Assembly (NCBI GenBank): GCA_016213695.1
Contig: JACQZV010000123.1
Location: 1-53,712, forward strand
Reading direction: 5' to 3'
From: Acidobacteriota bacterium
GTDB taxonomy: Bacteria > Acidobacteriota > Vicinamibacteria > Vicinamibacterales > UBA2999
DNA: 53,712 nucleotides
Shown: positions 18,098 through 23,360 of the stretch, piece by piece
Position numbering within the stretch: position 1 is the first letter of the stretch
Layout: every line of letters begins with the position of its first letter
Translations under genes and position numbers: made by a program
The notes under the pieces: model-generated
The model's database searches: none
What the model was told of the DNA's origin: nothing
Seen by the model: the letters and a program-made list of their open reading frames with translations, nothing else

Positions 18098-19500
18098 CGT
18101 TTCACCTCACCGACGACGCCCGGCCGCGTCATGTTCTCCACCGACAGGACGCGGGCGAGCTGCGCAGCGTCCATCAGGCCGCGTGCGAGGACGATCTCAC
18201 GGATCGATTGTCCGGTGCTGATCGACTCCTTCGCAATCTCCGCGGTGGTGGCGTACCCGAGATGCGGGCTCAAGGCGGTGGCCGTGGCGGTGCTGCGGTC
18301 GAGCAGCTCGCGGCACCGCGCGGCATCCGCCTCGATGCCGTCAACGCATCGGAGCCGCAGCGCGGTCATCGCCTCGCGCAGGATGGTCGACGCGTGGAGC
18401 GCGTTCCAGGCGATGACCGGCATCATCACGTTGAGCTCGAGCTGGCCCGCTTCCGCCGCCACCGCGATGGTGACGTCGCACCCCATCACCTGGTAGCACA
18501 CCTGGTTGACCATCTCCGGGATCGACGGGTTCACCTTGCCCGGCATGATGGACGATCCGGGCTGCACCGCGGGCAGCGTCACCTCGCCGATGCCCGCGCG
18601 CGGGCCCATACTCAGCAGCCGCAGGTCGCTGGCGATCTTGCCCAGCTCGACCGAGAGTCTCCGCATGGCGCCCGAGTACGCAACGACGTCGCCCATGCTC
18701 TGCGTCACACGGAAGCGGTTGGCCGCAGGCGTGAGCGGCAGGCCCGTGGAGCGGCTCAAGTGGTCAACGGCGAGCGACGCGTAATCCTCCCCTGCGTTGA
18801 GGCCGGTGCCGACGGCGGTCGCGCCCAGATTGAGCTCGTGGAGTCCCTTCGCCGCATGGTCCACGTCGTCGGCGGCGTGCGAGAGACAGCCCGCATACCC
18901 GGCGAATTCCTGTCCGAGGGTCATCGGCACGGCGTCCTGCAGGTGCGTCCGGCCCACTTTCAGCACCGCGTCGAACTGCCGCGCCTTGGCGGCGCACGAG
19001 GCCGACAACGCGCGGGCCGACGCGACGAGCGGGCCATGGGCCATCAGCAGCGCGAGCCGCGTGGCGGTGGGGAACACGTCGTTGGTCGACTGTCCCATGT
19101 TGACGTGGTCGTTGGGATGCACGAGGCGGTACTCGCCGCGCGCGCCGCCGAGCAGCTCCGCCGCCCGGTTGGCGAGCACTTCGTTTGTGTTCATGTTGTG
19201 CGACGTACCGGCTCCCGCCTGGTAGACGTCGACAACGAAGTGGTCGCGGAGCGCGCCGCCGAGGACCTCGTCGGCGGCGCGGACGACGGCCTCGCCGACG
19301 GTCTGGTCCAGTCGATTGAGCGACAGGTTCGCCTGCGCGGCGGCCTTCTTGATGAGCACCGTGGCCGTCACGAGTGCGGCCGGCGCGCGCAGCCCGCTGA
19401 TCGGGAAATTGGCCGCGGCCCGGGCGGTCTGAATGCCGTAGTAGGCGTCAGCGGGGACGGCGAACTCGCCGAGAGGATCGCGCTCCGTTCTGAATTGCAT
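18094..19500 (-). CDS. aspA: Aspartate ammonia-lyase (class II fumarase/aspartase superfamily)
   Basis: EFAVPADAYYGIQTARAAANFPISG and GAGTSHNMNTNEVLANRA resemble aspartase more than FumC; GSSIMPGKVNPSIPEMVNQVCYQVMG signature. Confidence 0.8.
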   Translation of the reverse strand: MQFRTERDPLGEFAVPADAYYGIQTARAAANFPISGLRAPAALVTATVLIKKAAAQANLSLNRLDQTVGEAVVRAADEVLGGALRDHFVVDVYQAGAGTSHNMNTNEVLANRAAELLGGARGEYRLVHPNDHVNMGQSTNDVFPTATRLALLMAHGPLVASARALSASCAAKARQFDAVLKVGRTHLQDAVPMTLGQEFAGYAGCLSHAADDVDHAAKGLHELNLGATAVGTGLNAGEDYASLAVDHLSRSTGLPLTPAANRFRVTQSMGDVVAYSGAMRRLSVELGKIASDLRLLSMGPRAGIGEVTLPAVQPGSSIMPGKVNPSIPEMVNQVCYQVMGCDVTIAVAAEAGQLELNVMMPVIAWNALHASTILREAMTALRLRCVDGIEADAARCRELLDRSTATATALSPHLGYATTAEIAKESISTGQSIREIVLARGLMDAAQLARVLSVENMTRPGVVGEVKR

Positions 19501-19518
19501 TGGAGGCGTACCCCGTAA

Positions 19519-19526
19519 ATTATACT
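19519..19526. promoter_or_regulatory. Overlapping divergent -10 elements (aspA / fumarase)
   Basis: ATTATACT: TATACT on + (6 nt before ATG 19533) and TATAAT on - toward aspA. Confidence 0.55.
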
Positions 19527-19532
19527 GCTCGG

Positions 19533-21059
19533 ATGGCTTCGTCCTTTCGCGACAGCGTGCTCACGCTCATTGTCCGCACCTCGACCGATCTGCCGCCGGA
19601 CGTCCGTGCGGCCATGACAGCGGCGAAGGCCGCCGAAACGCCCGGGACCCAGTCGGCGCAGGCGCTGTCGATCATCGCGCAGAACATCGATCAGGCCGCC
19701 GAGTGCGAAGGCGCCATCTGCCAGGACACCGGCATGCCGACCTTCGAGGTGAAAGCGCCGGTCGGCGCCAACCAGATCGTGATGAAGCAGGAGATTCGCG
19801 ACGCGGTCGCCGAAGCGACCAGGCGCGGAAAGCTGCGTCCGAACTCCGTCGATTCCATCACCGGCGACAATTCCGGCACCAACCTCGGGCCCGGCACGCC
19901 GATCGTGCACATCGAGCAGTGGGAGCACGACGATATCGAAGTGAAATTGATCCTCAAGGGCGGCGGGTGCGAGAACATGAACGCCCAGTACTCGCTGCCG
20001 GCGGATCTCGCGGGGCTGGGGCGCGCCGACCGCACGCTCGAAGGCGTGCGCGCGTGCATCCTGCACGCGGTGTGGCAGGCACAGGGGAAGGGATGCGCGC
20101 CGGGCGCGGTCGGAGTGTGCGTCGGCGGCGACCGTACCTCCGGCTACGTGCACGCGAAGGAGCAGCTGTTCCGCACGCTCGACGACGTCAATCCCGACCC
20201 GCGCCTCGCGCAGCTCGAAGCCTCGATCATGGGCGAGGTCAACAGGCTGGGGATCGGCGCGATGGGCTTCGGCGGCCGGACGTCACTGATCGGCTGCAAG
20301 ATCGGCGCGCTGAACCGTCTGCCCGCCAGCTTCTTCGTGTCGGTGGCGTACGACTGCTGGGCGTTCCGTCGCCTTGGCGTCGTGCTCGACGGGGGCACCT
20401 CGGCCATCAAGCGATGGCTCTATCGCGATCCGGCCACTCCGGTGGCCGCCATGGCCGACCAGGCCGGCTTTCAGCGCACCGGGCGCGAGGTCGCGCTGCG
20501 GACGCCGCTGACGGAGGCACAGGTGCGCGCGTTGCACGTCGGCGACGTGGTCCTCGTGTCGGGCCGCGTGTACACGGGCCGCGACGCGGTGCATGCGTAC
20601 CTGATGAAGCACGAGCCGCCCGTCGACCTGCGCGGGTCGGTGCTGTATCACTGCGGGCCTGTCGTGGCCAGACAGGGTGAGGGATGGACCGTGACGGCGG
20701 CCGGACCGACGACCAGTATTCGCGAGGAGCCCTACCAGGCCGACATCATCCGCCGCTACGGCGTGCGCGCGGTGGTCGGCAAGGGCGGGATGGGCGCCAA
20801 GACGCTCGCCGCGCTGAGGGACGCAGGCGCCGTGTATCTCAACGCCATCGGGGGAGCGGCGCAGTTCTACGCGCGAGCCATCGACCGCGTTGAGGGTGTA
20901 TCGCTGATGGAGTTCGGGACGCCCGAGGCGATGTGGCATCTGCACGTGACCGACTTCCCGGTCATCGTGACGATGGACGCGCACGGACGCAGCCTGCATA
21001 CCGATATCGAGCAGGCGTCCGCCGCGGAATTGGCGGCGCTTGGCGCCGCGCGCGCGTAA
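19533..21059 (+). CDS. Class I fumarate hydratase
   Basis: CQDTGMPTFEVKAP, GGGCENMNAQYSLP, GPTTSIREEPYQADIIRRYGVRAVVGKGGMG; alpha and beta regions in one chain. Confidence 0.93.
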   Translation: MASSFRDSVLTLIVRTSTDLPPDVRAAMTAAKAAETPGTQSAQALSIIAQNIDQAAECEGAICQDTGMPTFEVKAPVGANQIVMKQEIRDAVAEATRRGKLRPNSVDSITGDNSGTNLGPGTPIVHIEQWEHDDIEVKLILKGGGCENMNAQYSLPADLAGLGRADRTLEGVRACILHAVWQAQGKGCAPGAVGVCVGGDRTSGYVHAKEQLFRTLDDVNPDPRLAQLEASIMGEVNRLGIGAMGFGGRTSLIGCKIGALNRLPASFFVSVAYDCWAFRRLGVVLDGGTSAIKRWLYRDPATPVAAMADQAGFQRTGREVALRTPLTEAQVRALHVGDVVLVSGRVYTGRDAVHAYLMKHEPPVDLRGSVLYHCGPVVARQGEGWTVTAAGPTTSIREEPYQADIIRRYGVRAVVGKGGMGAKTLAALRDAGAVYLNAIGGAAQFYARAIDRVEGVSLMEFGTPEAMWHLHVTDFPVIVTMDAHGRSLHTDIEQASAAELAALGAARA

Positions 21060-21143
21060 CAAGGCCGCGCGCACGGCCTAAGATACGGTATGTCAACGAG
21101 TTAGGACGGGCCCCCGTGCTTGCCCGGGAGCGACGGCGGAGCA

Positions 21144-21149
21144 TATAAT
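21144..21149 (+). promoter_or_regulatory. -10 TATAAT upstream of the IscA-type gene
   Basis: TTGCCC (21120-21125), 18-bp spacer, TATAAT; then an AGGAG RBS, i.e. a leadered gene. Confidence 0.5.
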
Positions 21150-21173: not shown

Positions 21174-21497
21174 ATGATCAATGTGTCCCCGACAGCGGCG
21201 TCGAAGATTAGCGAACTGCTTACCGAAGAGGGCAAGACGGGCAGCGGCCTGCGGGTGTTCGTGCAGGGCGGCGGCTGCTCGGGGTTCCAGTACGGCCTGA
21301 TGATCGAGGAAGGCGGCGGCGATCTGGACCAGGTGTTCGAGTCGAACGGCGTCAAGCTGTACGTCGACCCGGTCAGCGTCAGCTACCTCAAGGGCGCCGA
21401 GGTCGATTTCGTCGAGACCGTCACCGGCGGCGGATTCACCATCAAGAACCCGAACGCCGTGTCGACGTGCGGCTGCGGCCAGTCGTTCAACGTCTAG
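21174..21497 (+). CDS. HesB/IscA/ErpA family iron-sulfur assembly protein
   Basis: GGCSGFQYGL ... STCGCGQSF conserved cysteines. Confidence 0.93.
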   Translation: MINVSPTAASKISELLTEEGKTGSGLRVFVQGGGCSGFQYGLMIEEGGGDLDQVFESNGVKLYVDPVSVSYLKGAEVDFVETVTGGGFTIKNPNAVSTCGCGQSFNV

Positions 21498-21537: not shown

Positions 21538-22518
21538 GTGACCACGACCCTTTCGGAACTGACCCGTCTGAAGCCGACGGGCGGCAAGCGGTCGAGCAAA
21601 CGGGAGCAGATCGTCAACGTCTTCCTGCGCCAGGAAGGGCACCTCAGCGCCGACGATCTGGTCGATCTGATCCGCCGCGAGGATCAGCGCATCAGCCGCG
21701 CCACCGTCTACCGCACGCTGCAGTGGATGGTGGACGCCGGTATCGCGCGCAAGGTCGACTTCGGCGAGGGCCGCTTCCGGTTCGAGCACTCCTACCGGCA
21801 GCCGCGGCACTTCCACCTGATCTGCAAGACGTGCCACCGGTCGTTCGAATTTCTCAGCTCCGACATCGAAGCGCTCGTTGAGGAAGTCGCATCCGCCCGC
21901 AGCTTTTCCGCGTCGCAGAGCGTCGTCCAGATCTACGGCACGTGTGAGGAGTGCCGGACCGGCCGGCAGCCGAGCGCGGTCGACGGACACAAGGACCTGC
22001 TGTTTGCCCGCGACGCCCTGCGCATCGCGATCGCCACCGAGCGCAGCGGGCTCGAGTTCTACGGCCGCGCGGCCCGGATTACGCGCGATCCCCGCGGCCG
22101 GAAGGTCTTCGAGGATCTCGCGAAGGAAGAGAAAGAACACCTGAGCAAGCTCACCGCGCGGTACAACGAGCTGCTCCAGCGCGATCCGCAGCTCGAGTCG
22201 CGGCCCACGTTTCTCTTCTTCAAGGGCGCGGCGCACGGCCTGTTCGCGGAGGGCGCCGATCGCCTGGCGCGCGGGGTCAACGACCAGCAGGCGCTGCTCA
22301 TCGGCATCCGCTGCGAGCGCGGGTCGCACCGGTTCTTCAAGAAGTACGGCGAGCGCTTCGAGGATTCCGAAGGCAAGCAGATCTTTCTCGAGTTCGCCGA
22401 CGAGGAGCGCCAGCACCTCGAGCTCCTGATCCGGGAGTACCGCGCCCTCGTCAAGCGGCAGGGCCACCGGCGGCGCCCGGGCCGGCCCGGCTCATCGGCG
22501 GCGCGCGCCGCGCGGTGA
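21538..22518 (+). CDS. Fusion: N-terminal Fur-family regulator plus C-terminal rubrerythrin/ferritin-like diiron domain
   Basis: Fur part: RISRATVYRTLQWMVDAGIARKV, HFHLICKTCHRSFEF, CEEC. Ferritin-like part: ATERSGLEFY...EEKEH...CERGSHRFF...DEERQH (two E / ExxH sets). Single uninterrupted frame. Confidence 0.9.
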   Translation: MTTTLSELTRLKPTGGKRSSKREQIVNVFLRQEGHLSADDLVDLIRREDQRISRATVYRTLQWMVDAGIARKVDFGEGRFRFEHSYRQPRHFHLICKTCHRSFEFLSSDIEALVEEVASARSFSASQSVVQIYGTCEECRTGRQPSAVDGHKDLLFARDALRIAIATERSGLEFYGRAARITRDPRGRKVFEDLAKEEKEHLSKLTARYNELLQRDPQLESRPTFLFFKGAAHGLFAEGADRLARGVNDQQALLIGIRCERGSHRFFKKYGERFEDSEGKQIFLEFADEERQHLELLIREYRALVKRQGHRRRPGRPGSSAARAAR

Positions 22519-23360
22519 TCCCTCGACGGGCTCGGGCCCGCGTCGATCTCCACCTCCATACCACGGCGTCAGACGGCCGGTGCACGCCGCGCGAGCTCGT
22601 CGATCGCGTGTCGGACGCGGCGCTCACCGTGATGGCCGTGACCGACCACGACACGACCGCCGCGGTGGCCGATGTGCAGGCGCGTGCGCGCAGTCACGGC
22701 ATCGAGGCGATCAGCGGGATCGAAATCACGGCCGTCGAGGACGGCCGCGACATCCACGTCCTCGGCTACTTCATCGATCCGCTGCACGAGGCGCTTCAGA
22801 CCTTCCTGGCTGTGCAGCGGCAGGCGCGCCTGACGCGGATCGAGGCGATCGGCGTGCGGCTGGCCGAGCTCGGCATGCGGGTGGACGTGCGGCCGCTCGT
22901 CGAAGCGGCCACCGCGCAGCGCGGACGTTCGGTCGGGCGGCCGCTCGTCGCGCGCGCGCTGGTGGAGGCGGGCTACGTCGCCGACACGAGGGAGGCCTTC
23001 GACCGGTGGCTCGGCCGCGGCTGTCCCGCGTTTGTCGCGCGCGCCGGCGCTACCCCCGAGGTGGTCATCGGCGTCATTCACGAGGCGGGTGGCATCGCGT
23101 CGATCGCGCATCCAGGCAAGGCAGACCTTGCCGCGCGGATCCCGTCGCTGGCTGCCGCCGGACTGGACGCCGTGGAGGTGTTTCATCCCGACCACGACGA
23201 TTCCCTGGTCGCGCTGTACCTGCAGATCGCGCGCGACCTTCGGCTGTGCACGAGCGGCGGGTCCGATTTTCACGGCGATCCCGCCCACGGCCGGTCGCCC
23301 GGGTCGGTGACGCTTCCGCCGGAGGAATGGGATCGGTTGCGGGCGCATGGCCACCGGTGA
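22515..23360 (+). CDS. PHP-domain phosphoesterase (TrpH/YciV, RNase AM-like)
   Basis: VDLHLHTTASDGRCTP, VTDHDTTAA, GGIASIAHPGK, GSDFHGD. GTG overlaps the upstream stop (GTGA). Confidence 0.9.
   Translation: MIPRRARARVDLHLHTTASDGRCTPRELVDRVSDAALTVMAVTDHDTTAAVADVQARARSHGIEAISGIEITAVEDGRDIHVLGYFIDPLHEALQTFLAVQRQARLTRIEAIGVRLAELGMRVDVRPLVEAATAQRGRSVGRPLVARALVEAGYVADTREAFDRWLGRGCPAFVARAGATPEVVIGVIHEAGGIASIAHPGKADLAARIPSLAAAGLDAVEVFHPDHDDSLVALYLQIARDLRLCTSGGSDFHGDPAHGRSPGSVTLPPEEWDRLRAHGHR

Follow-up and report, generated by a model that had tools for sequence, protein, structure and literature searches.

It is established for the Fur family that Fe(II) at the regulatory site drives DNA binding. 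In a survey of domain architectures Fur is a monolithic family (PMC5882156), and the coupling of iron sensing to oxidants inside one bacterial regulator is an open question. The hemerythrin diiron domains of BRUTUS are iron/redox sensors that are oxidised by O2 and H2O2 and whose iron is labile when reduced (PMC12022348), and bacterial hemerythrin domains joined to effectors act as O2/redox sensors (PMC9388753). Hemerythrin-domain sensors of this kind (BRUTUS, FBXL5, DcrH, Bhr-DGC) have in common with the protein described here a diiron four-helix domain joined to a regulatory module, but theirs is a His-rich ligand set in another fold family, and none among those reviewed is joined to Fur (PMC12022348; PMC9388753). 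In Firmicutes, Fpa/YlaN is an Fe(II)-binding partner protein that weakens Fur DNA binding in trans (PMC11559061). It resembles the present case as an Fe(II)-binding modulator of Fur, but it is a separate protein and carries no diiron four-helix domain joined to Fur.

Here, we describe a Fur-type repressor that continues, within one polypeptide, into a ferritin-like diiron domain, and that is encoded in a stretch of 53,712 nucleotides (the window) from a bacterium of the acidobacterial order Vicinamibacterales. Full-text searches of a collection of open-access papers found no description of a Fur-rubrerythrin fusion. Throughout an order of soil and water bacteria, largely uncultured, the diiron domain is covalently attached to the housekeeping Fur, and this order-wide fusion suggests that the repressor may respond jointly to iron and oxidants. 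If that is true, one protein would be both the iron regulator and the O2/peroxide regulator, in many members of the order without any other Fur-family protein beside it.

Anatomy of the fusion protein

The preliminary description placed a Fur-like and a ferritin-like module in a single frame of 326 codons, and both the frame and its two modules are borne out (Table 1). The frame opens with GTG and closes with TGA, Pfam FUR (PF01475) matches residues 15-133 (E 7.6e-26, 91.1 bits against a cut-off of 23.1), and Pfam Rubrerythrin (PF02915) begins at residue 160 (E 1.8e-12, 48.3 bits against 22.8) and falls into two stretches that match the two-fold internal repeat of the ferritin-like fold. The motifs quoted in that description are also where it had them, with H91-F-H93-L-I-C96-K-T-C99 and C136-E-E-C139 in the Fur half and, in the ferritin half, E168 in ATERSGLEFY, E198 and H201 in EEKEH, E260 in CERGSHRFF, and E290 and H293 in DEERQH. 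The predicted diiron ligands are thus distributed over helices A (E168), B (E198 and H201), C (E260) and D (E290 and H293).

Table 1. Coordinates of the fusion gene, its domains and its neighbours in the window.
Feature	Position	Strand	Basis or remark
fur::rbr fusion gene	21538..22518	+	open frame, 326 aa; Pfam FUR + Rubrerythrin
Fur-type repressor module, residues 15-141 (winged helix + dimerisation/metal-binding half)	21580..21960	+	Pfam, PDB, Foldseek
Ferritin-like (rubrerythrin/COG1633-type) diiron domain, residues 156-304	22003..22449	+	Pfam, hmmsearch, AF2, ligands
A-type Fe-S carrier gene (erpA/iscA-like)	21174..21497	+	PF01521 E 4e-20; 40 bp upstream of fusion
Class I [4Fe-4S] fumarase gene	19500..21059	+	PF05681/PF05683
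PHP-domain gene overlapping 3' end of fusion	22515..23360	+	PF02811
Candidate sigma-70-like promoter (TTG...TATAAT) upstream of erpA-like gene	21120..21149	+	window match

Sequence matches of the Fur half in the PDB are to Fur, PerR and Zur. It has in common with Fur (PF01475) the winged helix, the regulatory site residues, the Cys4 site, and R59 with E104. The fusion differs from Fur in its C-terminal diiron domain of about 150 residues, in the canonical Fur box, which our genome scans did not find, and in its scores against the NCBIfam Fur equivalogs (at best 70.6-70.9 bits against cut-offs of 146 and 220), which are models that describe other lineages. The residues that discriminate PerR from Fur are, in B. 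subtilis numbering, N61 as against R61 and D104 as against Glu (PMC8638851). In the fusion, which has the fold and metal-site layout of PerR, R59 and E104 are invariant where PerR has its hallmark N61 and D104, and PerR identity is thereby ruled out. With these Fur-type residues, peroxide sensing by oxidation of the Fur site in the manner of PerR is not predicted, and any peroxide input would need to come from the diiron half. In Zur, the regulatory Zn site has among its ligands a Cys that belongs to neither CxxC motif. Zur identity is likewise rejected, based on a model score of 58.9 bits against a cut-off of 167 and on the translation, in which the only cysteines are the four CxxC residues and C259 of the ferritin half, leaving the Fur half with none outside its two motifs.

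The second half matches by sequence TM1526 and encapsulated ferritins in the PDB, and an hmmsearch with a profile of 17 ferritin domains gave 1vjx (TM1526) and 2fzf as the best solved relatives, with 2oh3 (COG1633) further down. Modelled alone by AF2, the ferritin-like domain consists of four long helices (pLDDT 92, pTM 0.87) and lies near 2fzf and 2oh3 (TM 0.64-0.74, with weak E-values). The AF2 model of the full-length fusion is moderate (pLDDT 77.7, pTM 0.52), so that the relative placement of the Fur and ferritin halves is unreliable; its top Foldseek matches are Fur-DNA complexes such as 4rb2.

The term "rubrerythrin-type", applied to this domain at the outset, holds in part. The PF02915 match and the six ligands agree with it, but Pfam and NCBIfam scans of the fusion found no rubredoxin-like FeS4 domain (there is no CxxC after residue 139), and the nearest solved relatives belong to the TM1526/COG1633 branch. 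The fusion has in common with the rubrerythrin/COG1633 proteins (TM1526 1vjx, 2fzf, 2oh3) a four-helix bundle that is internally duplicated and holds two copies of E + ExxH, and differs from them, beyond the missing rubredoxin domain, in being joined to Fur and in having a conserved P-x-FLxF plus IFP-like crossover segment. A Pfam scan of the fusion gave no hemerythrin match, the matches being to rubrerythrin and DUF2383 and the ligand set being E/E/H/E/E/H.

Both predicted metal-binding modules are strongly constrained in Vicinamibacterales. The five regulatory residues (H35, E83, H91, H93 and E104), the four cysteines of the CxxC pairs (C96, C99, C136 and C139) and the six diiron ligands are invariant in all 112 order members compared. 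Across the 17 ferritin domains, which are 30-83% identical to the domain in the window, only 16 columns never vary, and these include all six diiron ligands. Within the order, the ferritin half is somewhat more variable than the Fur half at non-synonymous sites, yet clearly constrained.

Distribution, neighbourhood and natural losses

The fusion is present in 136 of 146 genomes of Vicinamibacterales (some copies being cut by contig ends) and in 0 of 24 genomes from other orders (four other families) of the class. A scan of public genomes found it at full length at 80 independent loci, with 66-91% identity. Their labels are Acidobacteria/Vicinamibacteria or similar acidobacterial names, apart from a few MAGs labelled "Acidimicrobiia". 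Diverged fusions (30-44% identity) occur in families f20, f23, f33, f40, f52, f57, f60, f65 and f67 of the phylum. The window consists of one contig from a draft genome, and a sequencing frameshift joining two genes was among the refutations that the preliminary description had named. Against such an artefact, or a chimeric assembly, stands an uninterrupted fusion at the 80 public loci and in the order genomes, with diverged copies in other families, which makes the artefact wildly improbable; the fusion is genuine, and it is conserved with an intact predicted diiron site throughout the order.

MAGs deposited under the "Acidimicrobiia"-type label (L008, L013, L040, L079) carry the acidobacterial locus with its usual neighbours. 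They are probably mislabelled, and those placed in trees group inside the order. Beyond MAGs with this label, plasmid records and a pattern scan for close relatives revealed no fusion outside Acidobacteriota. When 297 genomes were searched with the ferritin profile, the top 57 matches (E <=2e-30; including one fusion locus with a masked stretch, L133) lie at fusion loci or in fusion-length frames and free-standing ferritin-like proteins begin at E 5e-25, a gap that is partly by construction since the profile was built from fusions. Trees of the Fur half and of the ferritin half contain similar groups, and the fusion may have had a single origin, with which both trees are compatible.

Of 28 carriers, 19 encode no PF01475 protein besides the fusion; the genome from which the window comes (90.6% complete) is one of them. 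The other carriers have a second, stand-alone Fur-family gene, and a DtxR-type regulator is also present in most carriers. In genome G035 (L140 and L131), the stand-alone Fur is closer to the Fur half of the window than is that genome's own diverged fusion. In one MAG (L264, ~942-1775), an in-frame deletion of about residues 83-130, which could be real or an assembly error, has removed most of the Fur metal site from a protein that keeps the HTH and an intact diiron domain.

At all 112 order loci the fusion is immediately preceded by the erpA-like gene, a putative operon partner, which has a TATAAT-like box ahead of it in 82 of 110. The fumarase gene is found upstream in many, not all, of the order loci and the PHP gene downstream in most, with PHP and ABC genes as the usual followers.

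Ten genomes of the order do not carry the fusion. Five of these have no cognate erpA-like gene and are possible assembly gaps, one has an erpA-like gene at a contig end, and four belong to family f86 (L248-L251; genomes G338, G346, G347, G344), where the PHP gene comes straight after the erpA-like gene and the fusion has been lost cleanly, as a unit. A different kind of loss is found in family f40, in which some or all of the diiron ligands are gone (L120, L124-L130, L135, L136; kept in L123) and all nine Fur/zinc ligands are retained. Mean identity in f40 is 0.78 for the Fur half as against 0.50 for the ferritin half, which has drifted and is evolving faster. As read from translations, the f40 fusion has nuoB, nuoD, map, nuoI, lpd and lipB-type genes as neighbours, with the A-type carrier 2.5-6 kb upstream in most. 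Since the f40 fusion is kept despite its lost ligands, the diiron site is dispensable there, and hence not indispensable to the architecture everywhere; its retention points to either a metal-independent role or slow decay. Together, the ligand-loss series of f40 and the whole-gene losses of f86 make the sensing question directly testable.

Possible roles of the diiron domain

In light of these findings, what might the diiron domain do? The preliminary description had suggested a built-in peroxide or O2 sensor, or detoxifier, that may gate DNA binding, and the conserved fusion with its intact predicted diiron site supports this in part. We tentatively propose that the fusion is the main, and often the only, Fur-type iron repressor of Vicinamibacterales and that its C-terminal diiron domain serves as an in-cis co-sensor of iron and oxidants, a proposal that we hold to be plausible but short of probable. 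Fe(II) at H35, E83, H91, H93 and E104 would allow the dimer to bind DNA, as in ordinary Fur, and the diiron domain (E168, E198, H201, E260, E290, H293) would take up Fe(II) from the labile pool that also serves the Fur site and, once loaded, would be oxidised by O2 or H2O2. The occupancy or redox state of the diiron site would then move the Fur half into or out of its DNA-binding state, in a putative gating step whose direction and target genes are likewise matters of prediction, and the resulting repression would reflect free iron and oxidant together. Co-sensing draws on the intact state of both modules with their nine and six invariant ligands, on the near-universal presence of the fusion in the order and its frequent standing as sole PF01475 protein, on its loss as a unit in f86, on its constant linkage to an A-type Fe-S carrier, and on the precedents of BRUTUS, the bacterial hemerythrin sensors and Fpa/YlaN. 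Counting against it are the ligand loss in f40, the moderate full-length AF2 model, and genome scans in which neither Fur box nor targets were found. It is possible, if doubtful, that the fusion represents a new class of Fur in which the built-in diiron centre, not the Fur site, senses O2/peroxide, so that a single protein combines the tasks of Fur and of a PerR/OxyR-type regulator; f40 would then be an iron-only revertant.

Other roles can be envisaged for the same domain. Relatives of the ferritin-like fold reduce peroxide or oxidise Fe(II), and the intact 4Glu/2His ligand set would suit an in-cis detoxifier, a diiron ferroxidase/peroxidase that clears Fe(II) and H2O2 near the Fur site and shields it from Fenton damage without any conformational signal. 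The ferroxidase activity of the MbfA ferritin-like domain (PMC7762939) also counts in favour of detoxification. However, the fusion lacks a rubredoxin domain that could supply electrons, its neighbourhood holds no constantly linked gene for a separate electron donor, and one active site per repressor would give a regulator little catalytic capacity, which leaves such a role rather unlikely. A purely structural domain, in which the four-helix bundle mainly determines how Fur oligomerises or which protein contacts it makes and the metal site stabilises the fold, would accord with the persistence of the f40 fusion after ligand loss. We nevertheless judge it improbable, as the six ligands are invariant in the 112 order members and in most other families, and their place among the 16 invariant columns is more than a scaffold needs.

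The erpA-like gene directly upstream at all order loci, along with the capacity of A-type proteins to bind both iron and Fe-S clusters (PMC12683245), could also be read as an iron relay, with the diiron domain as an iron buffer that gives Fe to the A-type carrier or takes it from it and so couples Fe-S assembly to Fur. This is very unlikely, given that the fusion is not adjacent to the carrier in other families, that the carrier persists in f86 where the fusion is lost, and that deletion of IscA/SufA raises, and does not abolish, the cluster in E. coli Fur (PMC12683245).

Searches for Fur boxes and target genes

No palindromic Fur box was seen upstream of the erpA-like gene in the window or at 110 order loci, and autoregulation through such a box was rejected, as palindrome and Fur-consensus scores hardly differ there from those of shuffles. 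Genome scans of the window's own genome and its relatives found no convincing Fur-box regulon or target genes, and no palindrome was common to the FeoB upstream regions compared. Some feo loci adjoin DtxR-type genes, and hence the fusion may not control Feo.

When 3 mismatches were allowed, the scan of the window's own genome gave 12 Fur-box-like sites, most of them inside genes, against 2 in the control. Among the intergenic sites, the clearest adjoin a DtxR/MntR-like gene (L148) or separate a leuA-like gene from a LysR regulator (L150); with such neighbours, they are not evidence for Fur. The site at L148 (near 1501; G000:C72), TGATAATTTTGATTA, lies between the DtxR/MntR-like gene and a divergent gene and is probably a DtxR-family site. 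A TGATAAT-type palindrome recurs in three genomes (L150, L214, L221; near 1501), with a 2-isopropylmalate-synthase-like gene on one side and a divergent LysR regulator on the other, and is probably a LysR site. At 2 mismatches, the sites found in relatives precede a separate, stand-alone Fur gene of PerR-like type (L219, L222) and not the fusion gene. These sites (~1501) are the Fur/PerR-box-like palindromes TGATAATTGCTATCA and CGATAATCGTTATCA, and the stand-alone Fur-family gene near them has Asp at the PerR D104 position (L143, L144).
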